From positions 48,605,469 to 48,669,468 of the forward strand of contig OZ020485.1 in assembly GCA_963971405.1 (NCBI GenBank): 64,000 nucleotides of DNA. The letters are read 5' to 3'. Made by a program: the position numbers and the translations under genes. The notes under the pieces are model-generated. The model saw nothing but the letters and a program-made list of their open reading frames with translations, did no database searches and was not told the DNA's origin. Every line of letters starts with the position of its first letter. The first letter of the stretch is position 1. Shown here piece after piece: positions 1 to 39,100 of this stretch. The stretch is from Psococerastis gibbosa (lineage: Eukaryota > Arthropoda > Insecta > Psocodea > Psocidae).

Positions 1-690
1 TCACCCACTTTCCTATGTAATTGCTGAGCCAGGTTGCCCATAGAGCCCTGACCAGACCACCTTGGAACCTGCAGTACCGCACTCCTACATTACCACTCTC
101 TTTTCCTGAATATTTTACCTCAAATCCAGAAATTTCTTACTTTACCTCAACCACTTTTCCAGTGATATATAGGGTCACTACTCGCTGGAGGCTTCATTAT
201 AGAATCAGGGATTCTGCTGAGTCAGGTTACTCATTGAGTCCCGAACTAACCAACTTTAATCCTGTAGTACCGCACTCCTACATTACCACTCTCTTTTCCT
301 GAATATTTTACCTCAAATCCAGAAATTTCTTACTTTACCTCAACCACTTTTCCAGTGATATATAGGGTCACTACTCGCTGGAGGCTTCATTATAGAATCA
401 GGGATTCTGCTGAGTCAGGTTACTCATTGCGTCCTGAACCAACCAAATTTAATCCTGCAGTACCGCACTCCTACATTACCACTCTCTTTTCCAGAATATT
501 TTACCTCAAACCCAGAAATTTCTTACTTGACCTCAACCACTTTTCCAGTAATATATAGGGTCACTGGAGGCTACATTATAGAATCAGGGCTTCTGCTGAG
601 TCAGGTTACTCATTGCGTCCTGAACCAACCAACTTTAATCCTGCAGTACCGCCCTCCTTCATTACCACTTTCTTTTCTTAGAAACCAGGT
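1..690. repeat. Satellite array, 193-bp monomer, about 3.5 units
   Basis: The same block recurs at exactly 193-bp spacing: the GAATATTTTACCTCAAA segment starts at 108, 301 and 494. Copies differ by scattered substitutions, and the third lacks a few bases near 565. The array runs off the left edge, so its full length is unknown. The open frames at 21-302, 355-558 and 527-712 are products of the monomer and not genes. Confidence 0.9.
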
Positions 691-880: not shown

Positions 881-1078
881 GGAGGTTAAGATCCCTGGAA
901 ATTGAGTTACATCCCAAAAAAAATCCTTGGACATAAAACCGTGTAAAAATTCAAAACACTTCGTATACCAGGCAAGTCGCGGCTGCGGAGGTTAAGACCC
1001 CCTGAAAATTGAGTTATCCCAAAAAAACTCCTTGAACATCAAACCGTGTAAAAATTCAAAATATTTCGTACACTAGGC
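881..1078. repeat. Tandem repeat of about 103 bp, interrupted by the hAT transposon
   Basis: Two adjacent units start GGAGGTTAAGA at about 884 and 988 and both contain CGTGTAAAAATTCAAAA followed by a segment ending in AGGCAARTCGCGGC. The second unit is broken after 1078 and resumes at 4907-4935, on the far side of the hAT element. It is therefore the insertion target of that element. Confidence 0.8.
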
Positions 1079-1864
1079 CAGTGCCGGGTTTGGCTATGGG
1101 GCACTGTGGGCCCGGGCCCCAGGGCCCCCACAAAAATGGGGCCCCCACAAAACGAAAAAATACAAATAAAAAATTGAAAAAATTAAAAAAAATCAAAACA
1201 GATAACTTTTTAAATTTTCGCGGGAAATTCGAACGCATCGTGGCATTAATGACTCATTTTTGATAAAAATTTAACAAAAAATGAAGTATGTCCACTCCTG
1301 CTCTGAAACCACGATTGTTTTGCTTCATTAAATACAAATTGAAAATTTGAAATCAAATTTCTAAATTGAAACTACTTTTATCAGCACTTTCTGGTTGGTA
1401 TATTGTTAAGGTAAGTAGCATAAGTTAATTCTTATATTAGAGGCGGAAGTACCTAATAGTTGTTCTTTATAAGATAAGGTCCTTATTTTTCGTATTCTGC
1501 GCCCATTTACCACAATTCACAGAACGCATCAAAACTTTGTAAGCCTATTAATTTTAATACGAAATGTGCCCAGCCACGTGGTCGCCACAAAATCGAGCAC
1601 GTTATAAATATAAAATTCATTGGTCTAAAATGTTATATGTCATAAAATGTTATATTATAAGACGCATGATTCGGAATTTTGAGATGTTTTATACAAAAGG
1701 GGATAAAAAATAAAATGTATTCGATTTTGTGGTGACCACGTGGCTGCACATTTCATCTTAAGTAGGGCAATAGGAACAAGTGGACTAGATAATTAGGCTC
1801 TGGCTAGTGAGTTCTGAAAAAACTAATTTATTACAATTTTTATTTTTGATTCCGTAGTGAAATA

Positions 1865-4614
1865 ATGGATCGTCACAAGGGAAAACGCGAATATGCAAGC
1901 GGCAGTGAAAAGCGGAAAATCGCAGCAGATAAAGAAAACAAAATTCAAGATGTTTTATCTAAAACGCGCCGTATAACGGATTTTGTAACAAAAATAGAGA
2001 CGGGTCCATCTACTCCTAGTTCTACTTCTAATTTTGTTGAAATGATGAGTGGTGATTCTGATTTTCCTGCATCTTCTCAAGTTATTGCTAGCCCTACCCA
2101 AGAGGTAAGAGTTTGACTTTAATTACTTAATTAAGGTGACCGCAATCAAAAATTACCGACCCCACTCACCCCAGTAATTCTTATGGAATTAAAAATGGGG
2201 GACTCCTGTTAATTTACTGTATGAATTAAACCTACCTAAACTTGAGTCGGCCATGCCGAAAGGATTGTTTACAAAATTAATTACAACTGTAATTGTTTTA
2301 CTTGTAGGCAGTAATTGATAACAATGACGAATCCGAAAATACTGCTGATGATGGATTTTGCAAAGAAAATGACGTGGGATTGTGGCCAGCAGTTCTTAGT
2401 CAACAACACATCGACTATTGGATCAAGAAAGGAAATTTGGAAACTCAGCATTGTAATGAAGATATTTTGAAAGAAAAAAGCTTGGGACAAGTAGATGCAG
2501 TGAAAAGAAGAAAATGCCATGCAAGTTTATTCCTTCGTCAAACTCAGGCAGGCAAGTCTATAAGCCGCTCTTGGTTATGTTTTTCACCTAGTACGGGGAA
2601 GCTATACTGCTTTTATTGTAAATTGCTCTGCAAATCAGCAAATCAGTTTTCAACTGAAGGGTTTGCTGACTGGAAGCATGCGTCTGAGCGTTTGAAAAGA
2701 CATGAAACTACCGTAACGCATTTGCAAATAGTTTGCCAATTTAAGCATCTCTCAAACGAGGCAATGCGTATTGATCGTGAGTTGGCCACACAAGTGAAGG
2801 AGAGCATTGCTTATTGGCGAAACGTTCTAAACAGATTGATTTCCGTCATAATATTTCTTTCTGGACGAGGACTTGCCTTTCGAGGGGACAACGAAATTTT
2901 GGGATCAACCAAAAATGGCAATTATTTGGGAGTCCTTGAGCTAATTGCACAATATGATCCGTTTTTAGTAGGCCACTTAGAGAAGCATGGAAATCGTGGC
3001 AGTGGTAGTGGCGGCGTTAACTACCTATCTGCCCACATTTGCGAAGAATTAATTGCGCTGATGTCCACCAAAGTTAGCGATGAAATAATTAAACGCTTAA
3101 AAGCCTGCAAATATTATTCGGTTTCGGTAGATTCAACAACTGACGAAGGCCATATAGATCAAATGACTGTGATTGTCAGGTATCTAGAAGAAAGCACACC
3201 AAAGGAAAGATTTCTTAGTTTTATGCCAAACCAAGGCCATAAAGCTAAAGAATTATTTGATGGCCTCAACAAAGTTTTAAAAAAGTTCGGCCTGGATTTG
3301 AAAGATATTCGTGGGCAGTCGTATGACAATGCTTCCGCTATGAGTGGAGAATATAGTGGTCTACGCACTTTGGTGCTAAATGAGAATCCTTTGGCTTTAT
3401 GGGTTCCATGTTTCAATCATTCCCTCAACTTAGTGGGCACAAAAGCGATGGACTCCTGCTCCCAATCGAAATTATTTTTTAGCTTTCTTGAGCAAATTTA
3501 TGTATTTTTTACAAGTTCCACAGCTCGGTTCAACGTCCTTTCAAATGTTCTAAAAAGTGCTGCGAAGAAGTATGGCCACAACATACCAGTGCCCAAAAGA
3601 ATCAGTTTAACCCGGTGGTCCTCAAGAGCGGAAGCTACTAATAGCCTAGTTTTGGGCTATAACGAAATACGAGAAGTCCTTAAAGATCTCTCCGAAGAAG
3701 ATGTCCAAGCAAGTGGACTCTATTTGCAAATTACCACGTTGGAGATAGCAATTTACGCTGTTCTTTGGAACGATATACTGGCAAGGGTGAATGCAGTAAA
3801 CATCAATCTCCAGAATCCAAGAATCGACATTAATACTTCGATCAGTGTGATGGAGTCCCTTAAGATCTTCATTGGGGAATTTAGGGATTCTTTCCAAGAA
3901 TATGAGAAAAAGGGTGTTGAATTGTGTGGGCACAATTCTTATAAATCGGAAACTTTGCGGAAGCGGATCCGAAATGTGAGGCTAAATCCTTTGGATTATG
4001 GGAAAACTGAGGAAGCTGAATTCAGTCATAGCGAGAAATTCCGAATCGAAAGTTTCATTCCCATAATTGACCAGTTTATGCAATCATTGGATCGGAGAAT
4101 TTCAGCATATGAAGACATAAATAGGAAATTTGGATTTTTACAATATTTAGAAAAAATAAGCCCTGATGATTTGAAAACTAGGGCAGAGAACCTGGTGAGT
4201 TGTTACACAGGTGACTTGGACGGTAACTTGTACTTCGAGCTAGTACAGTTTCGTGAGTTTGTGAAATTATTTGTGATAGATGATGCACAAAAAAACAATA
4301 TAATCGAAGAAAAACGTATCAGTTTTGAACGGTTCATGTACAATTTGATTTTAGAAAGAGGAGTAGCTGATAGCTTTCCCAATGTAGAAGTACTTTTGAA
4401 GATGTACTTAGTTATAATGAGTGGCAACATAAGCAGCGAGCGATCTTTTTCCGTACTAAAACACATAAAAAATCCTCGTCGCACCAGTTCTTCTGAAGCT
4501 CGGCTTAGCCATCTTTCAATGCTGAATATAAATCACGACATAGTGGCAGCGTTAAATTATGACGATATAATTGACAGTTTTGCTGTAATAAAGAGTCGAA
4601 GAGTGCATCTTTAA
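1865..4614 (+). CDS. hAT transposase (ZMYM1/DUF4371 type), two exons
   Basis: Exon 1 is 1865-2104 and exon 2 is 2308-4614, with donor GAG|GTAAGA and acceptor TTGTAG|GCA, both phase 0. The product is 848 residues. The N-terminus (1-100) is basic and then Ser- and acid-rich. A TTF-type zinc finger lies at about 166-220 (Cys pair in YCFYCK, later His residues). A DUF4371-like catalytic RNase-H-fold core follows, with the first Asp near 355 (SVSVDSTTD) and the second Asp near 420 (GQSYDNASA). CFNHSLNLVG is the usual Cys/His motif. The hAT C-terminal dimerisation segment lies at about 776-822 with SSERSFSVLKH, whose Glu is the expected third acidic residue. Known members cut and paste their element through these acidic residues. 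The length is normal for the family, no frameshift was found, and the gene lies within matched terminal repeats. Confidence 0.93.
2105..2307 (+). other. Intron of the hAT transposase gene
   Basis: A 203-bp AT-rich intron with GT-AG ends. The reading frame closes shortly after 2104 and reopens just before 2308, so splicing is needed to join the N-terminal basic region to the zinc-finger region. Confidence 0.85.
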
Positions 4615-4906
4615 ATAAATTAAAATTTTGTGTTTATAATTAGGTACCTATTAATTTATTCCTTTTAAAAATACACCGCAGTGTCTACAGCTTTAGTTGA
4701 GTAGCCCTTAGGCTTGTATTGTACTATTGACTTGACTTTATATTACTAAGAATCGCTTTTCTTTTTTATAATGATTTTGCAACCTGTGTCACCATTTTAT
4801 AATTTATTGTGGGATATTCGTCTAAGGGGATTAGAAATTTCTCCCCGAGAAAGGGCCCCCACATAATTCGGGCCCACGGGCCCCCACAAGCCCAAACCCG
4901 GCACTG

Positions 4907-5035
4907 CACTAGGCAAATCGCGGCAGCGAGAATGACTTTAAATTTTTGTTCTATCGTATTATTAACCCCACCTAGCGGAGTTAGGGCTATAAAACCCTCT
5001 CTTACACTCAAATAGGAAGGGACCGCCTGCTTTAC
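4907..5035 (-). repeat. Rest of the ~103-bp repeat and a dispersed CTCCGCTAGG repeat
   Basis: 4907-4935 continues the repeat unit split by the hAT element. About 4965-5035 is a reverse-oriented copy of a dispersed short repeat (CTCCGCTAGGT core, ...GTAAAGCAGGCGGTCC end) seen in + orientation near 15015-15110, 21717-21815 and 37195-37255. Confidence 0.6.
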
Positions 5036-6035
5036 ATGTCCTCCGAAGCATGGTCAGAAAATGTAGCAAGTGCAGGAATCGAAGCAACAACCTTTCCGGT
5101 GAAAGTCAGTGTCTGTACCACTACTCTTCATGTCCTGACTAATGAGAATCGTCGTTTAGAGCCGATTGCAGGAAAAAAGCCTCATAAAACCTTCAATAGC
5201 CTCATGAATTTGAAATATCAATCAGAAAGTTGTCAAAAATATCAAGACAACCAGAAGAAAATTTTCTGAGCTATCTGATATGATGTTTACGGGTTTACCT
5301 CTTTCTAATGCAAAATGGCCACAGTTATTTAATTTGATTTGCGCAAAAAACTATTGGTGTGCTGGTGTCCCGATGAAGAAGTTCATACACCGAAATTTCG
5401 ATGAGAATTTGTGCGAACTTGACCGAATCAGTCTGATTTGAACATCAGTCTGATGTTTTTGACCGCTCTACGATCAATATTTCATATGAAAATCAACTTT
5501 GTACAAAAAACGTTATTAAATAATAATACAAATGTAATCCAGCCTTGGGCTCACCTTGAAATTATGTAAGCACAACGAAGTGTCAAACTGTGTTTAGGAA
5601 CAAGCTTTGACGTGTGGAATAGCGGCCATTGCCCACTGGGGTACAACTAATTCGAATATTTCATTCACGCAAACTTGCCCAACCACTTGTGGAAGGCGCC
5701 ATCTTTTTTTCGACTGTAGATGAGTTTTTATTGCAACTTTGTTGCTTTTGCAATATGTATTAGTAGTCATTTTGTAATTGTTATTTCGCGCTTCTGGCTG
5801 CGTCTACAGTGTTGCTCTGCGGGCCTATTATGCCGTTTAATTAACCTATTCCTGGTATTAAAAATGTTAGCAGATCATTTTTGAATAGAACTTTCCATTG
5901 TAAAAATATCTTGTTTGCATATTTAATCCCAGCTGATTGGTGCAAGCCGAGTTCCGAAGAACCACTGCATTTCCACAAACTATTGCCAACGACTGCCGTG
6001 TAAAATAATCAAAATTGACCTTTTTCTACTTTCAG
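5036..6035. other. Upstream intron of dachsous; no exon seen
   Basis: No cadherin-like translation was found in any frame here. The 5036-5269 open frame matches no family I recognise. The stretch ends in a good acceptor, TTTCTACTTTCAG, at 6023-6035. Earlier dachsous exons must lie left of the window. Confidence 0.6.
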
Positions 6036-6517
6036 ATCACCGCGGGAACTTAACCTACCGCATACCTCCAGGCGTCGCAGGCGACAAATTCACCGTCGAC
6101 CCCACAAAAGGCACCGTCACGACTCGCGGGCTACTCGACCGGGAGACCCAAGACTTCTACTCCGTCCCCGTCTATATTAGCGAGAAGGAACAGCGTCGTC
6201 CTTCGGACGTGGCCATCGTTCAAGTAACCGTTCTCGACGTTAACGACCACGAGCCTACCTTTCGTCCTGGCGCCTGCTACCCTCTTCGTGTGCCTGAAAA
6301 CTCTGAACTGGCTGTTATCCACAAAGTGGTGGCTTCGGATTTGGACACGGGCGCGGGGGGTGAAGTGACGTATTCGATTACTAGCGGTAATGCGGGGAAT
6401 AAATTCAGTATTGACTTGCATTCGGGGTTGTTGAGTGCGCGGCCACTAGACAGAGAAGCACACGCCAAGTACAATTTGGTGATCACTGCGCAGGATCGTG
6501 GTTCGCCTCCACTTCAG
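6036..6517 (+). CDS. ds: dachsous exon a: end of one cadherin repeat and most of the next
   Basis: Acceptor at 6034-6035 and donor CAG|GTAATA at 6518. The exon enters with two bases of a split codon and leaves at phase 0. The translation shows GLLDRET, then VLDVNDHEPTF closing the first (partial) repeat, then ACYPLRVPEN and PLDREAH of the next. The GC-rich coding sequence contrasts with the AT-rich introns. Confidence 0.93.
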
Positions 6518-9500
6518 GTAATATTTTTTTTCTTTAATATCATTCAATCTTGTTTAGATCTTCACCTGTGGACCTATAGTGGTTGAATATTTAGAAGAGA
6601 GTTCTAAAAAAAAACGAGTGATCTCACAATGATGCCGTTCCCTAATCTACGATTAATGTACTAATTTTTAAAATTAAAGTAGGCGCATCAAAGTCCCATA
6701 TTCGGTAAGGTATTCGCCCAGTTAAGTCCGCAGGACCTTCAATTATCAATATTGAAATGAGTATGGCTACCAAATTTATAAACGTAATTTTAATAGCCTA
6801 ATTCCACCAGTTTTCCCATAGACAGGACGGATTTGTGCGGGGGTGTACAGGTATGTCCATAAAGCTCTTTCTCCGTTACCGCCTGGCTTAATGATATTAA
6901 ATAATTAATAAGTTGTCTATATGCGAAACATAGTATTTTCCGACACCAAGGTTTAAGGTTTAAACGCTAATATTGTATGTTCCCCTCATCACATACTCTA
7001 CTATTTTTCCAATAAATATGGGAAAATGGGTTAAATTTGTCCAATTTTCATCTAACTTCTAATGTCGATTCACTATGCCAATAACCATTGACAGAAAATT
7101 AGGAAACGCGGTAGCGCACGAGCCAGGTGTTCCGAGACCGGAAGTTGAAAAACTGTAGACGTTCCGAAACAATTTCCTTAGACCTGTATACTTGCCTCGT
7201 TTTTAAAGAGTACCGTGAGGAACATTTCTTTGAAGAAAAAAACCGCAAGTTAACCAAAATTTCAAGGTTGAACCTATTTTACTGGGCTACAATCTACTGT
7301 TTTTCTAATCTAATTTTGTGTAACTGTGTATTATACCATATTCTGTTTAACTTTAAAAGTCATTTTCCTTACTATTTATAAGAACTATTTTAGATCGACC
7401 ATGGCCCATTAGCCCGCATATTACTAAGCCATCATTCTCAATGTTGATTCATTAATAGTAAGAGCAAAAGAGAATTTATTTACAAAATCATATATACATC
7501 ACTATACGTCAGCCTTTCTCTCCCCCCTATAACGTCTTGCAGACCTCGATCCTGAAAGTTCTAGGCCATCAGGCTCATCACCTATAGAATGCGCAAATGA
7601 ATCCAAACAGGTGCTTTATCAGCCACACATACCTAGACCTAATTAACGACCACGTAAAACCCATATGAACGCTTTATGGCACGGGAATGAGGAAACTCAT
7701 TCTCCGTGAAAAATTCGAAAAAAATTTCTTTAGAACGTGAGTAATAAAATGTTTGTACTTTATTTGGATTTGGAACGCCCTACGTTGTGACGTAATTTTG
7801 CAGTTGTGTGTGTAAATTAATCGCTTTAGTATTGTTGTCGAGACATTTAGTGCTTTAATTCTGTGCTTATTGCTTCCTCATTGAACAATGATTGTTGAAC
7901 ATGTCCGATGCAAGGCTGCAATGAAGTAATTATATAGAGAGGCATAGTTTAGAGTTGATGCTACTGAAAATGTACACGATGAGAAGATACAACGGCATTG
8001 GGCTACAGACAGCAAGCAATTTAAGCGCTGGGCACCATATTTCTGCTATTCGACTTTGTCTAATGTATGTAGAATGGTCTCAAGGACCCTCTCAAGTCAT
8101 GCCAGAGGGATTCTCAAGATGCCATTAGAATTAAAAAAATTGGCCTATGGGGTACATAGCTTATTTGCATTTTATTGGACCAAGGTCTGTTTGCAAACAA
8201 ATGATTAGTTATTTATTTTTATGTACAACACCAGAATTTCAGTTTTCGTTGTTTTCTGAGCGCTATAGCGAACCCTAAGTTTTGCGTCTGCTGGCTTTAT
8301 CCAGCAGCTGACGCTATAGCTTTTTGGCGCCGTCACTGGCACTAGATGGGCGAATAGTTCACCAGCGTGCCTTTTTTCACATATTGTAAACAATAAAAAT
8401 GGCAAGACACCAACTATGTTTGCGTATTAGATCAGTCAAGCTAGCCTTACCAATGATTAAGGAGGGGTAGGGGGTAGGGAACAAGAACGTTTTGAACTTT
8501 AGGAATAGGTTGGCCTCCTTGCCACTGTGGCGACTGAATTAGAGAGTCATTGGAAAAATTTCGTTGGGAATCCCTGTTCTAGAGTCGAGTCTAGTCTAAT
8601 ACCACATTATTCGTTACTTCCAGGGTTCCTGCAACGTTCCAGTCATCGTAGATGACGCAAACGACAACGATCCCCAGTTCTCGCAGCCCCGGTACACCGC
8701 CCATCTGTCCGAAGACACTCCCTTGGACACAGCCGTTCTTACCGTGCAAGCAGTCGATGCAGACATCGGTATTAACGCAAAAGTAGTCTACTCACTCGCC
8801 AACGAGAGTCACTGGCTTTTCAAAATTGACAACAAGACTGGAGTCATCTCTACATCGGGGTAAGCCAATCAATCATAATTTACAAGCAGTTGCCAGGATG
8901 TGATTTGAGAGCATCCTCTACTTCCTCCTGTGTCTCCACTTCCTCCTATCTCTCTACTTCTTATTATTCAGCACTTCCTCTCATACCAGTCCCACCCCTC
9001 AGAGATCGTCCTAAATTTGTATGTTAATTTAATATTTTTAATTATAATTTAATGGATATTTTGGATACAATCACTATTTCCTGTGAAACCTGACTTTGCT
9101 TTTTCATCTACTTATCCTTCTTGCAATGCCTCTTCTATCAAAGATAGGCGATCATCATTTGAAATTTAAACAAGTAGATACTGTACCTCGGAGTCCCCAA
9201 AAGGAAGAGAAGTATGTACAGTATAGAATGTACTTAGTCATGATGACTGTACTTGGGATGTGCAGTGGTTTTTCGTTGCCTTCTGCACCCTTATGCTATT
9301 GACTATTGAGTTCCTCCACCGTCCCAACCCCAGAACAAGAGAGTGCTCCAGTAGTGATTGCTTATGTATTAGCGGTAACCATTCGCCCCGTCACATAGTC
9401 TTCCTTGGGCTACTGTGGATTTTTCTAGACAAGCCTTCGCCACCAGACTTGCCACCACACCCTCCGATTATGCCACTGATTGATCGGGGACTGCTATATT

Positions 9501-15500: not shown

Positions 15501-18500
15501 TTTGTCTCTTAAAATATGACGTACAAGTTCAAATATTAATTATACTGTAGCTCTAATAAAAAAATGTTAACCCTAATTACAGTTCTGTTTAAAAAAATGT
15601 AACATACACGTACACCAAGAAACGAAAAATGGTTAGCGTGCCTGTCCTTGGTAGTCTGTGGTTTTTTTGTAAGCAGTGGTACCATCATGAGGACATTGTA
15701 CCACGGAGCAATCACTAGTAATGATAGTTTACCCGCCATGCCCATCATAATTAAACGCATTTTCGCCGCCATATTTTCTATACCGGGCTTAATTAAAACT
15801 GCCGATTGCAATTTGTGATTGACTAGCTCTGATATTATTCACCACGTCTTACTCAGCCAGTTTTTGAAATGGGAAATTTTTTTTCTGATTCAATTTTATT
15901 TTATATGTTGAATCGGATTTAGTTGTTAATGTGTATCCTCCCTCTTCGCTATTTCTGGATTCGTTATTAGTACGGTAATGTAAGAGTTTCCGACTCACAG
16001 GATTTTTATTAGTTGTCAGTGGTTATGGGGAAAATTGCGGGAAGCTAGACTACTAGTATATTCAGATAGTTTTTAGAGATTTAGATGTTATTAATTGGAT
16101 TGATGATTTTTATTGATTTGGTACGGGCAGCAATTGTATACTAGCTCCGCCCTCAATACCGGGGTTAATGCGCATGTGCTGTGTAGATCTTTACATATTT
16201 GTATACGATATCTTTGAATACCTGGGGTATTACAATATCTTATTGTAGGGATTGTAGGGAGTTTAATAGAGGTAAAAAAAAATTAGTTCGCACTTCTTTT
16301 CGTCGGGGTAATTTTTTCGATGAATCGCGGAAAAGCTTGTGGCTTTTGGAAGATAGTGACGCAAGTGACAAATTTGAAATTTGAAAAAAGCAAAATCAAT
16401 AAAATTACAAATGTTAAAAACTCCCGGAAAATATTCCACGTAATCTTCTTCGTACCAACATTCACTGAACTGCAATATGGGTTAATTGTAAAAGTGGGCC
16501 GAAAAGCCAAAATTCACCCAATTTTCTTTCTTACAATACCAGAAACTGAAAAGTCAAACATCTGTTTCCATGGCTGAAAACTTACCAAAAGTTACCGCAA
16601 TACAAAATAAGTCAGCTTCTCTATTATCATTAATGCTGGTATTATTATGGGCGTACTTGTAGTTTGGCACCGTAATGTAATGTAATTAGCATTTAATGAC
16701 GACCAACACCGACTACGAATGGAAATGGGCAAGCTCAGACATGCTTACTATTGCAATTTTAGCAGGGGTTTACTCGACTTCCTCTAGTATGGGAACAAGT
16801 TCTAATTCTCCACAAATTTTCTCATTAATTTTTATATTCTTTTAATTTTCAGATATTTTGACCGAGAGATACGAAGCGTCTATGACTTCCAAGTGGTTGC
16901 AACAGACGGAGGCCGCTACGATGCCCGGTCCCAAAAGGTCCCCGTCCAAATTACAATCATCGACGTCAATGACAACGAACCTGTGTTCGCGGCGCATCCC
17001 TTCACCACGCAGACCCCCGCCTACACCCCTGCCGGCACCAGCCTCGTCACCGTCCAGGCAACAGACGCGGATCTTGGCACTAACGCCGAAATCCTCTACT
17101 CCTTCGTTAACGAGGCTCCCAACAGCAAATTCAAGATCAACCCAACAACCGGTGTTGTTACAGCAAGCAACAGCCTATCAGCCGATGCTGGAAGATTGTT
17201 TCACCTCGAAGTCCTCGCCAGAGACCGCGGGAATCCTCCCCAAAGTGCAACCGGGCTTGTGGAAGTGCGCGTAGGTGATTACAGTGATACGGCCACGTTG
17301 CGGTGCCATAATGCGACATACCGTGTTCGTCTGCCGGAGAACGCGTCGCCCGGGCGAGAAGTGGTGCAAATTTCGGCTGGTCGTCTGGACGGACGACGTC
17401 AGAAGATTCGATATGATTTTGCGCGCGGGAGTTACGATGGAGCGTTTAGTATTCATGCTGATTCGGGGTTGGTGCGTGTGCGTGATAGAAGCCCTCTGGA
17501 TTACGAGACTGTGCACAATTTTTCGCTGACTGTGATGGCTGAGGCGGATAATACGTTGTTTGGCTACTGTGATATTCAAGTGGTGCTCGACGATCAGAAT
17601 GATAATGCGCCGAGGTTTACGCAGGAGCAGTATTCGGCTTCTGTTTGGGAGGGTAACAACAAGGGGACTTTTGTTATGCAGGTATGGAATTCCGTCTGTT
17701 CTCCCAGCAGTATCACGTGTCCTCTTAAATGCAGTTCTATCTAATCTGAACTTAGAGCCGTTTGATGGATAGTGGGAAACCATTCGTTGCTGTAACGAGC
17801 CGTCAGGCAATTCTTTGCTGTGATGTACTCTCTCTGCAAGACTCTCTAGTCACTTCTACTTTCTTCTAGAACCTCTTTAATTTGGTCCTGTTTTTGGTGA
17901 CATACACCAGGATGCAAATCCCATTTGGAGTCTGGAGGATCCTCGGCTGTATCTTGATCTCTCAATTTGTTGCCCGTGTCGGCAGCGCAATGAAAACACT
18001 CATACAGGGTATTTTCTTGCATATTTAAGCACCTTAGAATATCAGCAGCTCCATGCCATTCTCTTTAGTACTAGCACTGAATTATACATAAATAGCTTCA
18101 ATGCACACAGCAGCCGACAAGATCCCAGTCCGTTTGGCTAATAATATGCTCTTCGAAGTAACCATGTAAGCTATCCTAATCCTCAATTACTTTGCTCTCT
18201 TTCAGGTATCTGCTACGGACGTGGACGACGGCCAGAATGCTCACATTCTATACCATATTGTTGACGGTAATCATGACAACGCCTTTGTTATCGAGCCACC
18301 TTTCAGTGGCCTGATCAAAACCAATATTGTTCTTGATCGAGAAATTCGCGATACTTACCGTCTGACCATCATCGCCACTGACGAAGGAACTCCGCAGCTC
18401 ACTGGCACTACCACTCTCCGAATCAACATTGTGGATGCAAACGACAATCAGCCAACATTTCCTCCACACAGTATTATATCTGTCAGTGAAGGTAAGAAAC

Positions 18501-21500: not shown

Positions 21501-24500
21501 TCCAGATTTAATTCTTACTAGCTAGCTTCAACTGTTATTTGACTGCAACAGTAGCAATGCTTCGCTTATTTCGTATAGAACGTAATATGGAGTTTTAAGC
21601 TTACGAATATTGGCTCTAACGACAGAGAATTTCATATACAACTTTGAGTTTTTGCGTGAACTCTGCCAAGCCCTGCTGTTCTCGGCCACTTGAATTTTTC
21701 ATCTCACATTCCAGATGTAAAGCAGGCGGTCCTGAGTCTTCCTAGTTGAGTGTAAGAGTGGGCTTCAACTCCGCTAGGTTGGCTTAATAACAGAACAAAA
21801 AAGTAAACATTTATTTATTTAGAATTTTAAGCTTTCGAATATTGGCTCAGATAACAGAAAAATTAATAAAAACTATTCTTATAACTTTTTTTAATTGGTT
21901 TTTACGAAATGTCTGTTTGTCTCTCGGCTTATCAGTCTGTCTGTTCGTCAATTTGTGGGCAAACAACTCGGTGGATTTTGATGAAAATAAGCATGCAAAA
22001 TCTTTTTTTTTCTCTCAATTACTAATAGTCATCTAGATATAATTTACCCACACTGTAACTTAATAGCCTAGGAACTGTAACCTCCAGATTTTGTAGAAAC
22101 ACCCACCGTTACTAACCGAATACCAACACGTCAAATCCCTGTTATGTGAAGGAAACTTTTATATTCATTAACAGCAGTTTTACTTGCTTTTCATGTGCTT
22201 GTCAATACGTCAGTTATGCGAGTACGTTCTTTTATTGGGTACTCATACATTAGATGGAATTTCCTTATAAAATGTCGATAAGTTGCGTTACGGTGTATGC
22301 GTAAGCGTAATGCAACACGTTTGCTTCCAATTAGTCTTTGCTACAGACATGGAATAGTGATTGATAGTGTGACTTAATTTTGTCGCTCTTTATGGACTAA
22401 TTAAAGGAAAATATTCCCACTTGGTATTGACTTACTGACTGACTTGTAGTTGTCTGTTGTTAGACATATTATTTTAAGTTTGTTGCGTTCGGCTGCACAA
22501 TATGATTGGCTTATTTCTTTCCTATTTAAGTGCTTCTCCCTAAGATGTATAATACTCATGTCTTAAAAATATTGCCATCCTCTATTTCCAATAGGATTTC
22601 AGCTGACTTCAGAAAAATGACAGGTCTCTTGCCGCTAATTTTCTGGTCCTTTAGCAGTTTAGCCCACAGCTCTTCTCTCAATTACACTAATCCATCGTAT
22701 AGCCATCTTAGCTGGCACCTCTTGCAACTGACCTCTTCGATATCAACTATTTCGATTTGGGGACCTCATTCTCTAATGACCCGCTATTTCCAAATGTCAC
22801 TTATAAATGAGGACTGCTTCTAATGATCTCACACGCCTGTGGTCGTAACTTGGTAGCCTCTCATTCATTGCTGTAATGTCACACATTAAAATGATATTAA
22901 TACCATCTGCTTTATAATTATTCGTCACCGTATTTTATTTTTAATGCTCATTTAATGGGCCTAACATGGTGGTATACATTTTAAATACAGTCCCCAAATA
23001 GTACGAAAACAATGATAAAATTTATGTTGATGCGTTATGTATTTTTTTTAAATAATGATAATTTAATTCTACTAAGAGATAATATAATATACATTTGGGT
23101 CCGGAAGGTTACTACTTATCCCTTATCGTACTAAAAAACGATAGCATGTACTGTCCATGCCCTAAATTGTCTATAATTATTGTCAACATAAAAAGTGTGC
23201 AATATTATATAGGCTACTAATCCCTATTAATTTTATTATTTCAGAAGGCAACAGCGACGCAAACTTTTCCGTTCTCCAGGTCAACGCTACTGATGCCGAC
23301 AGCGGAAAAAATGCTGAAATACAATATTCCCTGCTGAATGCAATCAAAGGGGTCTCCATTGACCCGTCAACTGGCATTATTTACGTCAATAGAAGTGCCC
23401 TGCAACTTCCTGATGGAATGAAAGATATAGAGCTGAATGCTGTTGCCCAAGATCTGGGAGTGCCGCCTTTGACTAGCAGTGTTCCTGTGTTTCTCCGTGT
23501 TAGCAATGAAAGAGGGCAAGCGCCGCATTTTACACAAGAAGAATACCAGTAAGCAGTGATTACATTCCATAACATATTGTTCTTCTCATCAAATTTCTCC
23601 GGGAAAAATGTTTCCAAAATTTACAAAATGTGACAATCATAACAAAAACGTTTTTATGCATAGGCTCTTGAAATAGATAGCCAGAAAAATGTGGATTTTT
23701 TTCACAATCGAAGGCATTCTATCTCCTAGCCTATAACTGATATGGAATAGAGTTAATATAAATTCTGCTAATTCTGCTAATTTTATCTTTCAGAATTCGA
23801 ATCCGTGAAGACAGTCCAAGGGGAACAATAATTTTGAAAGTTGCAGCAGTCAGTTCTCGAGATGTAGCTCTAACAGAATTTTCTATTTTGTCTGGCAACG
23901 AAGAAGGCATTTTCCAAATCCTAAGGTATGTACTGGTATCTAAGGCACATTCCGGGCACTTTCTTTGTGCTTTTAAGTAGGTACGGTATTGTGTCATGCG
24001 AACTTATGATCTCTCTCAGCAATGGTTAATACACAATAATGCCGACTAGTTATCAGTAAGGACTGTCTAATCAAATGTGAACATTCAAAACGAGAATTCG
24101 AGTCATTTTAGGAGTCAAAACGCTGAATTAGCCCATTTAAAACAAAATTTACGTATTGCAGTGTATTCCTGTCTGTTTTGAATACCTACTTATAAATGTT
24201 CAGTCAAACAATCTCTGATATAGAGTAAGGAACAATGTGCGTAGTCAGTACCAAGTTATAAAACAAGTAAAATAGGTACTTATTCTTTGTATTTCGTTCC
24301 AGTCCAAGCGGTGAAATAGTGCTGCTGAAGGAAACGGATAGAGAAAAGCGAAGCTCCTACGCCCTGCACGTCACAGCAGGTGGTAACAATGCGACAGTTT
24401 TCGTGTCCATCGACGATGCCAACGATAACGCTCCAGTATTCCAAGGTATCGATGCAACAGGGGGTTACAGCGTTGAAGTATCAGAGTCCCTTCCTGTCGG

Positions 24501-26664
24501 ATCACCTGTCCTCACACTTACGGCCAATGACACCGATCTTCTAGGAGGTCCGAACACAGAATTGTGGTTTGAAATTCTTGCCGGGAATGATGCAGAAACG
24601 TTTGTTCTTGAGACAAGGACTGGTGTTCTTCGAGTCAAGAATGTCCTAGATGCTGATTCAGGAAGAGCCGAACATTTTCTGATTGTTCGTGTTTCTGATA
24701 GTGCGACAGCTCCTGATCATCCTCTTTCCAGTGTGACTCGGGTTACAGTCAAGGTATCAGATGAAAATGACAATGCTCCAAAGTTTCCTGTGAAGGAATA
24801 TCTGGAAACTGTAGCTGAAAATGAACCTATTGGGGCAAGTGTTTTCACTGCAAGAGCGGTTGATCTGGACGTTGGAGTCTATGGCCGTGTCAATTACTCG
24901 ATTGTCCCTAATGACGAAGACTGCTGGAAGCTCTTTCGGGTTGACCATGACTCTGGCGTGGTTTTTACTAACGTCGTCTTCGATTATGAAAAGCGTGATA
25001 GATGTTCCTTTACACTGAGAGCTGAAGACTATGGTGGAACAAGAACGGAAGTTCGGGTTCGTGTAGAAATTGAAAGTCGCGACGAGTTCCACCCTCAATT
25101 CACGGAGAGGACCTACAAGTTCTTCATTCCTCCACCATCTAGTAATGCGTTGCTTCCTCTCGGATATGTCATCGGTAGCGTACAAGCAACTGACCGGGAC
25201 AAAGGGCCGGACGGCAGAGTCGTTTACATGTTAACCACCCAACAGACATACTTCAAAGTTAATCGGACTACTGGTGCAATTATGGTGAAGAAGAAGTTGG
25301 ACCATTCTGGGTTAGATGTTAGTTTCATAGTGACTGCATCTTCAGGAAAGCAAGGGTCATTAACTAATACAACGGTTGTAGAAATAGTGATTGACCCCTT
25401 GGCCGAGCCAGGAACTAATCTTGCCAGTAATACGACGATAGCAGCTTCCGGTGGGCTCGCGGATTGGGCTTTGGGTCTCCTTATAGCACTTATTCTAATA
25501 GTGCTTGTGTTTGGTGGTGTTTTCTTGTTCCTGCACATGCGCAATCGTAGACACAAAAAGGTGAATAAGCCCGCGTTAGCTTCTGGGGCTGTTGGCAATG
25601 ATGGCTTTGTTGATCCAGGAGCATTCGATACAATACCCATACGGGGGACTGCAGCAACGAGTCAATTTGCACCACCCAAATACGATGAGATTCCACCTTA
25701 TCGAAATACAAGCAGCTCTGGCGCTGCAACTACCTCTGAACTGAGTGGTTCTGAACAGTCTGGGAGTAGCGGAAGAGGATCCGCAGAAGATGGTGAGGAT
25801 GTAGAAGACGAGGAGATTAGAATGATTAACGAAGGTCCGCTGCAAAGGGATGGCATCCACCGAACGCAGCTAGACGAAGACAACATTTCAGATGTGTCAG
25901 TACATAATACTCAGGAATACCTAGCTCGGCTTGGTATCGTCGACAACCCAGAGACTGCTCCTCACCCCGTCGACCAGCTGCACTTGTTTGACGAAGAAGG
26001 CGCTGCTGAAGCCGATCTCACAAATTTAATTTATGCAAAACTGAAGGACGTAGGTGCGGGTAGTGAACGCGGTAGTAACGACGATACGAACCTTAGTGCT
26101 ACCGTGGACCACGTGATTCTCGGTGGTTTCGATGTTCCGGTTGGTGGCGTTGGCACCCAGCAACCCTCAATGACTGGCAGCCTGTCCTCGATTGTTCATA
26201 GCGAGGAGGAGCTAACGGGTAGCTACAATTGGGACTATTTACTGGACTGGGGTCCCCAGTACCAGCCGCTAGCGCATGTTTTCTCCGAGATTGCCCGTCT
26301 CAAGGACGATACGGCGAGTGTGCAGAGCACCAACAGCGGCTCAACGAGCAGTAAGGGGAAAGGGCCCGCAGCAGTGAAAACGTTACCGCCTCCCTTGTTA
26401 ACCAGCGTTGCGCCCCGGAGCATAGCTGCGCCGGCAATTGCGCCTCGCGGTCCTCGCACTAGTCATCACTCCGCGCTTCCGCGGTCCCCCATTAGCCATG
26501 ACCCTTCTGGGTTCAGCACTTCCACAGCCATGTCCCCTAGTTTCTCGCCGTCTTTGTCACCCTTGGCGACGAGAAGCCCTTCGATATCCCCCCTAGTAAG
26601 CCCTGGCCACATTCCAAGGCCGGCCCAACGTGCCACTATCGCCGAGACTGAACTCAGGATATAG
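6036..26664 (+). CDS. ds: Dachsous-like giant cadherin, 3' half, eight exons
   Basis: Exons are 6036-6517, 8624-8859, 16853-17681, 18206-18491, 18712-19011, 23245-23548, 23794-23925 and 24303-26664. All have GT-AG borders and matching phases, giving 1642 residues. The product starts inside one cadherin repeat and continues through eleven more, then one transmembrane helix and a ~375-residue tail. Repeats carry the Ca2+-binding signatures LDRE and DxNDNxP. The tail motif NWDYLLDWGPQYQPLAHVF identifies dachsous and not fat or other protocadherins. In known animals Dachsous binds Fat between neighbouring cells and feeds planar polarity and Hippo growth control. Full-length family members have about 27 repeats and more than 3000 residues, so roughly half is missing to the left. 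No frameshift or stop was seen in the coding part. Confidence 0.95.
6518..8623 (+). other. ds: dachsous intron
   Basis: A 2.1-kb AT-rich intron. It holds a short dispersed repeat near 8160-8215 (also near 55008-55072). I saw no transposon ends or RNA gene, and the minus-strand frame at 8205-8405 matches nothing I know. Confidence 0.7.
8624..8859 (+). CDS. ds: dachsous exon b: cadherin repeat junction
   Basis: Acceptor TTACTTCCAG, donor GG|GTAAGC at 8860, phases 0 in and 2 out. It encodes IVDDANDNDPQF, which ends one repeat, and RYTAHLSEDTP through FKIDNKTGVIS of the next. The split glycine codon joins it to YFDRE in the next exon. Confidence 0.93.
9105..9200 (+). repeat. Dispersed repeat (GATTGGCGATCATCATGG family)
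   Basis: Shares GCCTCTTCTATC..AAGAT.GGCGATCATCAT with copies near 15165-15310, 30168-30215 and 51897-52020. It has no coding potential. It may be part of a SINE or a LINE end, and the class is not resolved. Confidence 0.6.
10178..10290 (+). repeat. Dispersed repeat; empty paralogue of the 58.5-kb insertion site
   Basis: GATCGATTTCGATGGCAAGGT and the following ~90 bp match the sequence flanking the hAT-like MITE at 58554-58734. Here the copy is uninterrupted, so it shows the pre-insertion state of that site. Confidence 0.75.
11406..11788. mobile_element. Palindromic Harbinger-like MITE, copy 1
   Basis: Long inverted arms (GGCGCCCATTCCACCGACCG on the left, its imperfect complement on the right) enclose a second, inner inverted pair (TTTCCACCGACCTCGC...GCGAGGTCGGTGGAAA). 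A near-identical copy lies at 47270-47655, with TTA at both ends. Here the flanks read TCA and TTA. A 3-bp TTA-type target and no coding sequence suggest a PIF/Harbinger-type MITE. Confidence 0.8.
12259..12649. mobile_element. hAT-like MITE with homopolymer tract
   Basis: Ends CAGTGGCGGGTGCAG and complementary CTGGACCCGCCCTTG. Flanks TCTACCTA and TCTAACTT agree at 6 of 8 positions. Poly-G and poly-C tracts lie inside the ends. Non-coding. Confidence 0.7.
12955..13232 (+). pseudogene. Non-LTR retrotransposon reverse transcriptase tail, broken
   Basis: Frames in turn read WLGHIVRM, then GR.SS, then VEQAKAHQGL followed by a stop and SQRKKK. This order is typical of the extreme C-terminus of arthropod LINE reverse transcriptases. 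The frame changes at least once and nothing upstream survives, so it is a dead 5'-truncated copy. Confidence 0.75.
13374..13496. mobile_element. Short palindromic element related to the Harbinger-like MITE
   Basis: Arms GTTTCCACATACGTCAATGG and its imperfect complement enclose TAGCAGACATT / AATGTCTGCTACCACGTCA, the same core found in the 11406 and 47270 elements. No target duplication is clear. Confidence 0.65.
13705..13894. mobile_element. hAT-like MITE with perfect 8-bp target duplication
   Basis: Flanked by AATGGAAG at 13697-13704 and 13895-13902. Ends AATGGCGGATC and GGATCCGCCCCTGT. Interior poly-G/poly-C stretches and no coding sequence. Confidence 0.82.
15015..15310 (+). repeat. Two adjacent dispersed repeats
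   Basis: 15015-15130 is the GTAAAGCAGG...CTCCGCTAGGTTG family. 15165-15310 is the fullest copy of the GATTGGCGATCATCATGG family. Both recur elsewhere in the window. The open frame 15069-15512 spans the pair and is not a gene. Confidence 0.65.
16853..17681 (+). CDS. ds: dachsous exon c: more than two cadherin repeats
   Basis: Acceptor TTAATTTTCAG; donor CAG|GTATGG at 17682; phase 0 out. It contains YFDREIR, IIDVNDNEPVF, a repeat ending in the degenerate VRVGDYSDT in place of DxNDNxP, then RLPENA, PLDYET and LDDQNDNAPRF. The weakened third linker lacks the Asn/Asp ligands expected for full Ca2+ binding. Confidence 0.95.
17682..18205 (+). other. ds: dachsous intron
   Basis: A 524-bp intron with canonical ends. 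No repeat or gene recognised. Confidence 0.8.
18206..18491 (+). CDS. ds: dachsous exon d: one cadherin repeat
   Basis: Acceptor CTTTCAG, donor G|GTAAGA at 18492, phases 0 in and 1 out. Encodes VSATDVDDGQN, VLDREIR, and VDANDNQPTF, followed by ISVSE, the start of the next repeat. Confidence 0.94.
18712..19011 (+). CDS. ds: dachsous exon e: one cadherin repeat
   Basis: Acceptor CTTCTTACAG, donor G|GTACGT at 19012, phase 1 on both sides. Encodes GAELGSVL, HLDFETR and VTDVNDNKPAF, then SYHASLP. Strongly GC-rich compared with the flanking introns. Confidence 0.94.
20403..20571. mobile_element. hAT-like MITE with perfect 8-bp target duplication
   Basis: Ends CAAGGGCGGACCCAGCGG and complementary CCGTGGATCCGCCATTG. 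Flanked by identical CAGTTGTA at 20395-20402 and 20572-20579. 169 bp, non-coding, with G- and C-rich inner tracts. Confidence 0.9.
21248..21870 (+). repeat. Tandem repeat, ~200-bp unit, three copies, the last disrupted
   Basis: Units begin CGTGARCTCTGCCAAGCCC at 21248, 21446 and 21655 (spacing 198 and 209). In the third unit the middle is replaced by a dispersed CTCCGCTAGGTTG repeat (about 21716-21818), after which the unit resumes with AAGCTTTCGAATATTGGCTC. Confidence 0.8.
21885..22025 (+). repeat. Fragment of the hairpin-ended repeat family
   Basis: TTTTTACGAAATGTCTGTTTG, a CTGT-rich stretch and GGTGGATTTTGATGA match the inner part of the copies at 48-62 kb. Neither hairpin end is present. 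Confidence 0.7.
23245..23548 (+). CDS. ds: dachsous exon f: one cadherin repeat
   Basis: Acceptor ATTATTTCAG, donor CA|GTAAGC at 23549, phases 1 in and 2 out. Encodes EGNSDANFSVLQVNATDADSG and ends in RVSNERGQAPHF. Both the LDRE position and the DxNDNxP linker are degenerate in this repeat. Confidence 0.92.
23794..23925 (+). CDS. ds: dachsous exon g: short exon within a cadherin repeat
   Basis: A 132-bp exon with acceptor ATCTTTCAG and donor AG|GTATGT. Phases 2 in and 2 out fit both neighbours. Encodes IRIREDSPRGTII through NEEGIFQIL. It was placed by phase and homology to the N-terminal half of a cadherin repeat. Confidence 0.9.
23926..24302 (+). other. ds: dachsous intron
   Basis: A 377-bp intron. 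Nothing else recognised. Confidence 0.8.
24303..26664 (+). CDS. ds: dachsous last exon: final repeats, membrane segment, cytoplasmic tail
   Basis: Acceptor TTTCGTTCCAG. The exon finishes one repeat (IDDANDNAPVF), encodes two more (linkers VSDENDNAPKF and the degenerate ESRDEFHPQF) and a last membrane-proximal repeat. A hydrophobic helix then follows at about 25466-25537 (WALGLLIALILIVLVFGG), next to a basic stop-transfer RNRRHKK. The tail has a Ser/Gly- and acid-rich stretch, then VSVHNTQEYLARLGIVDN, then NWDYLLDWGPQYQPLAHVF at about 26227-26283, then a Pro/Ser-rich end. The conserved tail segments are the dachsous signature and the part expected to contact cytoplasmic partners. Stop TAG is at 26662-26664. 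Confidence 0.96.
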
Positions 26665-35441: not shown

Positions 35442-36137
35442 TTACTCGTGATCAGCTGATGTGAATCGTAATTCGCCCCTCCTTTGCTTCTTACATTTCA
35501 AATTGTCCATCCAACAGTCACATTTGTACGACCCGTCACGGAGTCTCCGGGCTTCGAAATGAGATGGGCATCGAATGTTTGGAGTCCTACAGTTATAAGA
35601 GACTGGAGCCTGATCTGAACTGGGTTTAGTTTGGTCGGAACTGGGCTTAATTTGGGCCGAAATGGTTGTCACAGTTGAGGCCGAAGTGTTTCTATTATTA
35701 GATGATATGGTTGCAGGTGGAACTGGAATGGTGACATTTATCGATGTTGCAGTTGGAACAGAAGTGATTTTATTATTAGAGGATACGGCTGGAGGTGGAA
35801 CTGAAATAGTGACATTTAGGGATGATGCAGTTGTAGTTAGAACAGAAAAACTTGCATTCGTGGATGTTAAGGTTGCAGATGGCACGGGCAAGCTGTTATT
35901 TGAGGATGATAAGTTTGCAGATGGATCGGAAAAATTTGTATTTGTGGATGTGGTAGCAGTTGAATCTGATGAGTTTGTAGTTGGAACTGGTTTGATTGTA
36001 GTTGGAACTGATGCGCTTGTAGTTGGGGCTGTTGTTGTTTTAATTGGAACTGGAGTGGTTGTAGTTTGACTCTGCTTGACACATTCACATTCAGTGTGGT
36101 TGTCAAATTGCAGTTCCTCATTAACGTTTTCACCATG
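35442..36137 (-). CDS. Pvf: Pvf-like last visible exon: knot end, mucin-like linker, Cys-rich tail
   Basis: Acceptor TTTTTGTTTCAG precedes CATGGTGAAAACG at 36137, phase 0. The exon starts HGENVNEELQFDNHTECECV, supplying the last two knot cysteines, then about 150 residues rich in Thr, Ser, Pro and Asn. The linker contains an internal repeat of about 78 bp (SLNVTISVPPPAVSSNN / SINVTIPVPPATISSNN) and a KPSSDQ duplication. The tail is Cys- and Arg/Lys-rich. The frame ends in TAA at 35444-35442. However, CGA|GTAAGT at the same place is a strong donor, so the exon may instead end at 35446 and splice onward. Open frame upstream of 36137 is SINE sequence and not coding. Confidence 0.82.
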   Translation of the reverse strand, partial: HGENVNEELQFDNHTECECVKQSQTTTTPVPIKTTTAPTTSASVPTTIKPVPTTNSSDSTATTSTNTNFSDPSANLSSSNNSLPVPSATLTSTNASFSVLTTTASSLNVTISVPPPAVSSNNKITSVPTATSINVTIPVPPATISSNNRNTSASTVTTISAQIKPSSDQTKPSSDQAPVSYNCRTPNIRCPSHFEARRLRDGSYKCDCWMDNLKCKKQRRGELRFTSADHE

Positions 36138-39100
36138 CTGAAACAAAAATGGTTGGTTAGAGTGCAAATAAGCCGGCCGCCATACCAAGTTGAATCCAGC
36201 GGACCAGAGCAGGTTCAAAGCTGCAGATAAATTGGTCGTGTGCACAGTGCCGGTAGGGAAACATGGTAGGACATGTCCTGGTCACCTCCGAACTAATCGT
36301 GTGACTTGACTGTGTTTCCCAAGTGGTTCGGAATCCACTATAATCAGGAGGTCCACTGGAGTCCTATGGGCCCACACCGTGGCCTGGGACTGTGTCAAAC
36401 CATACTACTACTAGAGTGCAAATAAATAAAAACTTAATTAACTAATTACATCAGCAGTAACCTTTTGATTCCACTCTCTATCTATCTATCTATCTATCTA
36501 CCTGAAACAAAGTGAAAGTGGCTCAAAGTGTTTTTGTTTCAGCTAAACGTAACGTAAGTTATATACCGTATGTACGCCTCATGGGTACACAAAGGGCGTC
36601 ACTTATTCATTTTCTCTTTGACAGGTCGCCATCTGTAATCATAAAACTACGGCCTTTCAGACACGTCACATGTTATTCCATCCCTCTACGACCAATGTTA
36701 ACTGAGACATGCATTTTTTAAGCATCCTCCAGGAACCTAGCTACCAAGTATCAGGTTGGGGCTGTCTACATTGACCCGGTCGATCTGATTGACTTGCCGT
36801 CGAAGGATATGATTGTCTTTGCTAACAAAGGTAAGGGTTGATGTTTTTCAACAGTTTATTAATTGGCAATGTTCACAGTAAGAATAATTGAGGTAGGTAC
36901 GCTGCTGTGATGCCAATAATTATGCTGTTGAAAGGGTCCCAAGATCTATGTCAGCTCAACACTCTAAATAGTAATAATCAGATAGACCTCTCTCTGTGAG
37001 CAGGCCAACGACCTGTCCAAATCATTATTGGTGGAGACACCCTCCCTTTGCAATTCTACCACCATAGCAGTACAGGCCAGGGCATGTAGAGTAGTGGTAT
37101 ACGTATACGGACTTCCACCCGAAAAGTTACTGGTTTTAGTCCCATACTCATTATATTTTCCAGCCATGCTTTCAGGCCTTCTTAATTGATCTTTATAGCC
37201 CTAACTCCGCTAGGTAATAGTAATAGGTAATAGAACAAAAAAGTATTTATTTCATATGACGTTTCAACCCGGATTAAGTAGATCCGCTACTGTTAGGCGT
37301 ACTTTAGCTTGACGAGAGGGTAGGACAGGGCGGCGGCTTGTGTGGTCCTCCCCCGGGGCTAATGCCATGAATAATAACCACTTGTACAACGTTCTGGACG
37401 GTTGCCACTCTATTAAGATACACATCAAGGCTCAATTGGGTCCGCACCCTCCCCGAATAAAAATTAATTTAAACGCCCCACCGGAATGTACCGCTACACA
37501 TCTTCGAGTAATACTCGTCGAGTAATAGGTACTCGTCGAGTATTACGTTCAAAATCAAATTTCAAAGTTGATAATGATAGCAGAGCCCTCATTGATAGCA
37601 CTCGGGATAGAAGAATTGTTTCTCTACTGCTTGAAATGAAGAATCTGGCTGCCACTTACATAGTTACATAATTAATTTAAACGCCCCACCGGAATGTACC
37701 GCTACACATCTTCGAGTAATACTCGTCGAGTAATAGGTACTCGTCGAGTATTAAGTTCAAAATCAAATTTCAAAGTTGATAATGATAGCAGAGCCCTCAC
37801 TGATAGCACTCGCGATAGAAGAATTGTTTCTCTACTGTTTGATATGAACAATGTGGCTGCCACTTACATAGTCTATGTGCGTGTATTATTGTGTTAATTT
37901 TAAATAGTAAATAAATACTGACTTCTTTTCGACTACTAAGCCAGAAATACATTTTGAAAATATAAGTTTTGGGCCAAACTTCAGCGTTGTTAGTAGGTAG
38001 GTACTTATTTAATTAAAAAAAAAAAAAAAACACTCTAGTTTCTAATGCACATTTTTTCGAGGATTAATACCAGTTTGTGATGGCGTAGAGGCATAGTTTG
38101 ACGAGAGCAATAATTATAATTTTAACCGTCAAAACTTTCTGTGAGAAAAAAAAAGTGTTTCTAAGTCCGCGTCTAACAGACACATGCACGAGAAAAGTGA
38201 CACATTTCTAAATATTGGCTTTTGAGATAATTCAAATTTTAGTTCTGACCATTTTTTAGTTTTACTTGTAGTACTATCGAGGCACTTAATACTTTTGAGA
38301 TGTGACAGTTTACTTGAAAGAGAAATGTAATTACCACGTCAACGCCTGGAGCACATTCCGAATTATGTCAGTATTGCCAAACTTGAAGTAGTCAAACTTG
38401 ACAATGGATCCGTGACAAAACGCAATCTTATGGAAACAAATTAAACTAGATATGTGACACTACATTCATAAAATTCGCTATATTTTCCTCGACATTTTTG
38501 TATCAATAACTCAATTTTGCAATTTTTGAAATGTGTCACTTTTCTCGTGCATGAGCGATATGCACTATTGCAATTTAGGGAATCATTTCTTCTGTGGTAT
38601 GTGACCGCAATGTTACATGGGAGGGTTTGTTAGTCCCTTTACGGAAAAAAATAATTACGAGTTTGCTCGATAAAAAAGACACAATATTGGGAAATTACTG
38701 CGGTAGAACTGCACAAATTTGATTATGCAACTCGGTCGAAAGTCGAAACCGGGTTATCAGTATTATTTGGATTCTACCAGACCAGTCTCAGCAATATTTT
38801 TAAATTACACTATTCAACTGTGAAGTCTTTCAAAAAATTTCTAATTTTTCAGTAATGGAAGTCGGATACAGAAGTCAAGTTGCTGCTGACAGTTATTTAC
38901 TTAACGTGTCCAGGCGGAACACGTTTTAAGGGTTGTCCAGTAGGTAGCGGCCTGGATGGCCTTGTTGTTAGCTGACGGTTAAGAAACGGAAACTTCAGCC
39001 AAGTGATGAACGATAAGTTATCGCCTTCTGCATGTAATAATGGAAGGGAAGATAGAAGGGCTGAGGGTGGGGACCAAAATATGAGGATATAGAAAAAACT

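Follow-up and report, generated by a model that had tools for sequence, protein, structure and literature searches.

The window analysed here is a 64-kb stretch of the Psococerastis gibbosa genome (C2:48605469-48669468 of a 409-Mb assembly in 68 contigs) and contains a complete hAT transposon, the features of which are collected in Table 1. The two terminal inverted repeats (TIRs) agree at 15/15 bases, with a mismatch at base 16, and both 8-bp copies of the target site duplication (TSD), CACTAGGC, are perfect. These ends and the open two-exon frame of 848 residues were found as the sequence-only reading had claimed. Short perfect TIRs of 15 bp and a length of 3828 bp agree with the published definition of hAT elements (TIRs of 10-25 bp and a total length of 2.5-5 kb; PMC3942097). 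Chance can be discounted as the origin of these boundaries, since identical ends span exactly 3828 bp at 77 of the 100 listed genome places (of 170 left ends in all, window copy included). Motifs of the form GGGCCCCCACA lie close to either end and are putative transposase-binding sites. An imperfect palindrome in the 5' leader was considered as an independent nested MITE and this was dropped: a 31-mer from its arm, with as many as 3 mismatches tolerated, gave 167 genome matches, of which the 100 listed were all exact and located at copies of the hAT element (by-eye comparison). The palindrome is thus apparently peculiar to this element in the host genome.

Table 1. Features of the hAT element and its insertion site (window positions)
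Feature	Position	Strand	Basis
Adjacent unit of the repeat that received the hAT insertion, 105-bp spacing	911..982	+	Repeat listing and self-comparison
Left TSD copy, 8 bp, CACTAGGC	1071..1078	+	Sequence
Complete hAT element, 3828 bp	1079..4906	+	Letters; genome copies with equal end-to-end span
Left TIR, 15 bp, CAGTGCCGGGTTTGG	1079..1093	+	Sequence
Left subterminal GGGCCCCCACA motifs, at 1122 and 1139	1122..1149	+	Repeat families and letters
Imperfect palindrome, 5' leader	1554..1761	.	Inverted-repeat listing
Transposase exon 1, 80 codons, ATG at 1865	1865..2104	+	Predicted from sequence
Intron, GTAAGA...TTGTAG	2105..2307	+	Predicted from sequence
Transposase exon 2 (768 codons, then stop), with DUF4371 and a weak Dimer_Tnp_hAT match	2308..4614	+	Frame and Pfam
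Candidate catalytic D355 codon (VSVDSTTD)	3130..3132	+	Motif
Candidate catalytic D420 codon (RGQSYDNASAMSG)	3325..3327	+	Motif
Candidate catalytic E791 codon (GNISSERSFS)	4438..4440	+	Motif
Right subterminal GGGCCCCCACA motifs, at 4853 and 4878	4853..4888	+	Repeat families and letters
Right TIR, inverted CAGTGCCGGGTTTGG	4892..4906	-	Sequence
Right TSD copy, 8 bp, CACTAGGC	4907..4914	+	Sequence

The element was inserted into a repeat, an adjacent unit of which lies upstream and carries the same target uninterrupted, with TTCGTATACCAGGC joined directly to AAGTCGCGG; this unit thus acts as a paralogous empty site. An empty allele of the window site itself was not seen in the assembly among the 40 of 8330 candidates that were scored with a joined-flank query, which found both window flanks and whose other listed matches were partial and fell on a dispersed repeat in the right flank. 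A search for further copies of the element within the window returned only weak matches (best E 0.059). Cadherin domains were identified in three open reading frames of the window (Pfam), and the first cadherin exon (C2:48611464-48611991) has matches upstream, at C2:48599778-48600536 and further up, as well as downstream. Since cadherin-like exons flank the element on both sides and share one strand, the insertion is probably intronic in a cadherin-like gene, which may be dachsous-like. In the host genome TTAGG arrays were plentiful (13,642 and 7,517 matches to six units), the 100 matches listed clustering near one end of contig C1, as would suit an arthropod.

The predicted transposase of 848 residues is free of internal stops, its stop codon ending at position 4614. 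In the unspliced exon-2 frame the first methionine is exon-2 residue 153, beyond residues 89-145 of the exon, which weakly match a zinc-finger model (Pfam, E 0.0053, under the cut-off), and the two-exon model, in which the intron would be spliced out, therefore fits. Exon 2 matches DUF4371 (PF14291) with an E-value of 1e-19 and 71.8 bits against a cut-off of 32.1, and matches Dimer_Tnp_hAT (PF05699) weakly, with an E-value of 0.0037 and 17.5 bits, under the curated cut-off of 21.4; exon 1 has no Pfam match. The DUF4371 match suggests membership of the Tip group. D355, D420 and E791, which lie in motifs that we take to be typical of hAT transposases, are candidates for the acidic residues of the DDE type, and the predicted transposase would be capable of catalysis. 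No match to the transposase was returned by an NCBIfam profile search at E up to 0.1, and a phmmer search of PDB sequences yielded no hAT match, its single hit (E 0.51) being a fimbrial protein. Close relatives were confirmed neither in IMG/VR viral contigs (5 pattern-matching stretches, 0 confirmed) nor in GTDB genome contigs (25 pattern matches, 0 confirmed). An AlphaFold model computed from the single exon-2 sequence had a mean pLDDT of 34 and was discarded.

Copy number was assessed with short probes from several parts of the element. The genome contains 170 exact occurrences of the 35-base left end and 160 of a 35-mer spanning the first catalytic motif, and tolerating up to 3 mismatches added nothing to either count. 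With the same tolerance an inner 3' 35-mer gave 171 matches, of which the 100 listed were all exact, and the exact right-end 35-mer is present 169 times. Among the 100 listed left ends, those without a right end at 3828 bp comprise 20 with an exact right end at another distance and 3 with no exact right end. Forty of the 100 listed copies, the first in contig order with the window copy excluded, were read whole, and 23 of these are letter-identical to the window copy over 3828 bp. Near full length was found for 33 of the 40; across their 126,324 bp there are 10 substitutions and 0 premature stops, and four of them have amino-acid changes. The sequence-only reading had proposed the window copy as a candidate for a currently or recently active source, had suggested a search for near-identical copies elsewhere and had given, among the findings that would speak against it, that all copies elsewhere are old and diverged. 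The genome shows the opposite of such an old family, and a very recent genome-wide amplification is strongly supported; current activity is compatible with these results. Nothing marks the window copy as the source, many copies being equally intact; it is one among many equivalents.

Insertions of 5-6 bp are present in L052 and L053, the latter gaining two additional residues in frame, and L080 carries a 215-bp nested insert. The same 6-bp duplication is found in L039 and in L079, which occupy unrelated sites, so at least one slightly different variant was also multiplied. The AGTACC insertion of L039 had been considered as a Tc1/mariner excision footprint (TA CCAG TA); because it amounts to a tandem duplication and is also present in L079, reading it as the mark of a lineage is preferable. 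The insertions of L052 and L053 are compatible with Tc1/mariner excision footprints (TA TCG TA and TA CGAG TA, respectively), the L053 type presumably resembling that of Minos; the Minos-like footprint string was not found in the available text of the literature searched.

Transposition of the individual copies is indicated by their surroundings. The 40-nt left flanks are distinct in 100/100 cases, and five large contigs share the 100 listed copies (17 on C1, 28 on C2, 24 on C3, 20 on C12 and 11 on C13). Sixty copies were examined at the left flank alone and 40 were read whole; perfect 8-bp TSDs were detected by script in 34 of the latter and in 36 when L065, with a perfect TSD next to a mutated terminal repeat, and L067 were added by eye. 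No supporting point was found for the alternative that the element was multiplied not by transposition but by segmental or satellite-like duplication; the distinct flanks, the dispersal over five contigs and the TSDs found by script contradict it, and it is extremely improbable.

Several copies are incomplete or rearranged. Internal segments are missing from L040, L057, L070, L071 and L075, with filler at the junctions of L040, L070 and L071, as expected of aborted gap repair after excision. L067 is a one-ended remnant that extends from the left end to element base 707 and then passes directly into the TSD, a form expected if repair copied from one side only. L060 is broken near element base 1100, with its right end 13.6 kb away. 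The L041 element ends in ATTGC in place of its last G, and the TSD copy that follows has one mismatch; end processing may have left this scar. On contig C1, L048 and L049 lie 5.4 kb apart in inverted orientation with exchanged TSDs, for which inversion through recombination between the two copies is the simplest reading; a mis-oriented assembly segment would give the same appearance. This last point, together with the near identity of the copies read, would also suit an assembly that had produced or exaggerated the identity by pasting the collapsed consensus of a diverse family at many sites. However, private substitutions, the 5-6 bp insertions, the deletions with filler and the nested insert of L080 are unlike a pasted consensus, and most copies have their own 8-bp TSD, which makes such an artefact very unlikely.

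The age of the amplification was estimated from the substitutions in the near-full-length copies using insect mutation rates (PMC8742016). The mean age is approximately 22,000-79,000 generations at rates of 3.6e-9 to 1.0e-9, 79,000 being the value at 1.0e-9; at 2.8e-9 per site per generation it is approximately 28,000, with a Poisson range of 14,000-52,000. The rate of this species may differ from all of these. The 10 substitutions may include assembly errors, in which case the true age would be younger. A mean age of this order leaves room for a burst that stopped within that time. That the family was recently active and is already silenced, the burst having ended some thousands of generations ago, for example under piRNA control, with the identity reflecting too little time, is therefore a possibility to which we give somewhat less than an even chance; direct counter-evidence was not found, and the 23 unchanged copies of the 40 and the 33 intact frames do not bear on silencing.

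The right end behaved differently from the other probes: it has 169 exact matches, and tolerance of up to 3 mismatches brought the total to 322. Two of these 153 extra matches are the right ends of L041 and L065, which leaves about 151 look-alikes. Neither the left end nor the catalytic 35-mer has a similar tail, and the look-alikes therefore probably mark the ends of a family that is related, older or non-autonomous. The presence of these more diverged sites weakens a reading with no predecessor at all; absence of predecessors holds for the hAT element itself and perhaps not for its relatives. The look-alikes, at 1-3 mismatches, may be the remains of an older related family, and would then favour an old resident that was reawakened from one surviving intact copy over a newcomer. 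Against this stand the lack of any diverged left end or catalytic-region 35-mer within 3 mismatches (0 of either) and the low totals at 3 mismatches of the inner 3' 35-mer and the palindrome 31-mer, only 171 and 167, of which the 100 listed in each case were exact; a reawakened resident is accordingly rather unlikely.

The insertion sites were also compared for a target preference. The pattern nnTnnAnn is present in 23/100 TSDs against 9.3 expected (p = 4e-5), T at position 3 (49/100) and A at position 6 (44/100) being both enriched; G at position 1 (34/100, p = 7e-4) and other single positions are biased too, before correction for multiple tests. The T3/A6 pattern was first noticed in 41 TSDs and is found in 9 of the 40 fetched copies against 3.8 expected. 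At the other 60 sites, three of which (window copy, L079 and L080) had been viewed previously and do not have it, it is found in 14 against 5.5 expected (p = 8e-4). The motif nTnnnnAn, which is the TSD motif of the Ac group of hAT elements, is present in 15/100 (9.3 expected, p = 0.04) and is thus weaker than nnTnnAnn. The Mar MITEs and the Buster family share the hAT superfamily and an 8-bp TSD with the present element; however, the Buster motif nnnTAnnn (PMC3517528) was found in only 4/100 of its TSDs against 9.3 expected and is, if anything, avoided, so that the insertions do not show the Buster preference. Target preference of the Tip group was left uninvestigated in the available text of the paper that named it (PMC3942097). 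Neither this hAT element nor a Tip target preference was found in the available text of the literature searched (including PMC11008031, PMC8721813 and PMC4423477), which is not proof of absence.

Comparison with known systems was made as far as the available text of each source goes. BuT2 of Drosophila buzzatii, a Tip-group element (PMC3942097), is alike in its 8-bp TSDs, short TIRs and DUF4371 transposase, and has internally deleted derivatives as does the present family; it has a hAT dimerisation domain, whereas the corresponding match here is weak and below the cut-off, and it is 2775 bp long with 12-bp TIRs and a transposase of 643 residues in five exons, as against 3828 bp, 15-bp TIRs and 848 residues in two exons. 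Hermes of the house fly (PMC10368747) is likewise a cut-and-paste hAT element with an 8-bp TSD and subterminal repeats near an end, and differs in its transposase of 612 residues, which has a BED zinc finger, compared with 848 residues here. Mariner-2_DF of the fire ant (PMC6307670) belongs to another superfamily and offers a parallel in tempo, being an autonomous DNA transposon with a very recent amplification and identical copies that is reported to be currently active. Its 857 copies include 30 identical ones in sets of 2-11, with a diversity of 0.0051; by this measure of identity the present hAT family looks younger, since one sequence accounts for 23 of the 40 copies sampled.

Taken together, the element can be read with high confidence as a cut-and-paste hAT transposon that is autonomous and probably a Tip-group member, and that is in the midst of or just past a very recent genome-wide amplification. 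In the proposed mechanism, the two-exon transposase, with an N-terminal zinc-finger-like region, a DDE-type core and a weak C-terminal hAT dimerisation region, would bind the 15-bp ends, excise the element and insert it at new sites through an 8-bp staggered cut favouring nnTnnAnn. The gap left by excision would be refilled from a sister or homologous copy, presumably the route by which copy number rose, and aborted refilling would leave internally deleted or one-ended remnants. The element may have arrived recently from outside and may still be active today. The fuller form of this account is tentative, at a little below even odds: a natural, autonomous Tip-group hAT came into the species from outside, no longer ago than some tens of thousands of generations, and its invasion continues, with well over 100 apparently intact, practically identical copies per genome, more than one variant copied, a preference for nnTnnAnn that differs from those of Ac and Buster, and look-alike ends that are possibly mobilised.

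Most hAT elements known from animal genomes are degraded, and few natural ones are known to be active. What distinguishes the present element, which most likely falls in the already known Tip group, is its youth and intactness. The family is a good natural system in which to study an early invasion and the response of the host, its transposase can be tested without reconstruction, and records of abortive repair are kept copy by copy across it. Provided that the element is a member of the Tip group, its 100 insertion sites bear on the question whether that group has a target site of its own, as far as this is raised in the available text of PMC3942097.

The hAT element in the window probably lies within an intron of a cadherin-domain gene, in the same orientation as the gene; three cadherin-domain ORFs follow it in the window, and exons related to these are also present upstream of the window. 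The remaining annotated features are listed together with these ORFs below. The RNase H domain fragment is probably of retroelement origin, and the 279-codon open frame was without a match in the Pfam search at E-values up to 0.001.

Features of the window other than the hAT element
Feature	Window position	Strand	Basis
Tandem array, three copies of 193-bp units, 78-100% identical to the reference unit	22-677		
Cadherin-domain ORF	5996-6523	+	Pfam domain search
Cadherin-domain ORF	16806-17741	+	Pfam domain search
Cadherin-domain ORF	24271-26661	+	Pfam domain search
Open frame, 279 codons, Ser/Thr/Val-rich, repeats by eye	35445-36281	-	
RNase H domain fragment	59264-59740	-	Pfam domain search

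Genome-wide searches with the right-end 35-mer of the hAT element returned 153 matches carrying 1-3 mismatches, two of which are accounted for by known copies of the element, and no comparable tail of 1-3-mismatch matches was found for its left end or catalytic region. The remaining right-end look-alikes may belong to a related family of greater age, or may be non-autonomous passengers.

Two further genomic copies, L048 and L049, are inverted relative to one another and lie 5.4 kb apart on a second contig (C1:33137541-33150597). Their target duplications have been exchanged, reflecting either recombination between the copies, resulting in an inversion, or a mis-oriented segment of the assembly.

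Other copies carry insertions of their own. The copy L060 (C2:11153082-11166703, on the contig of the window) is interrupted near element base 1100 by an insert of ~9.8 kb. A 215-bp insert, SINE-like by eye and flanked by a target duplication of about 10 bp, was observed within the young copy L080. Because it resides inside a young copy and similar sequence occurs at window positions 36245 and 56810, this short element too was very recently active.

Much smaller insertions were identified in the copies L052 (5 bp at element base 577, of the form TA-TCG-TA) and L053 (6 bp at element base 3330, of the form TA-CGAG-TA). By their form, these look like Tc1/mariner excision footprints, as would be left after jumping into and out of hAT copies. 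Identical hAT copies could be used as a recorder of such jump-in and jump-out events.
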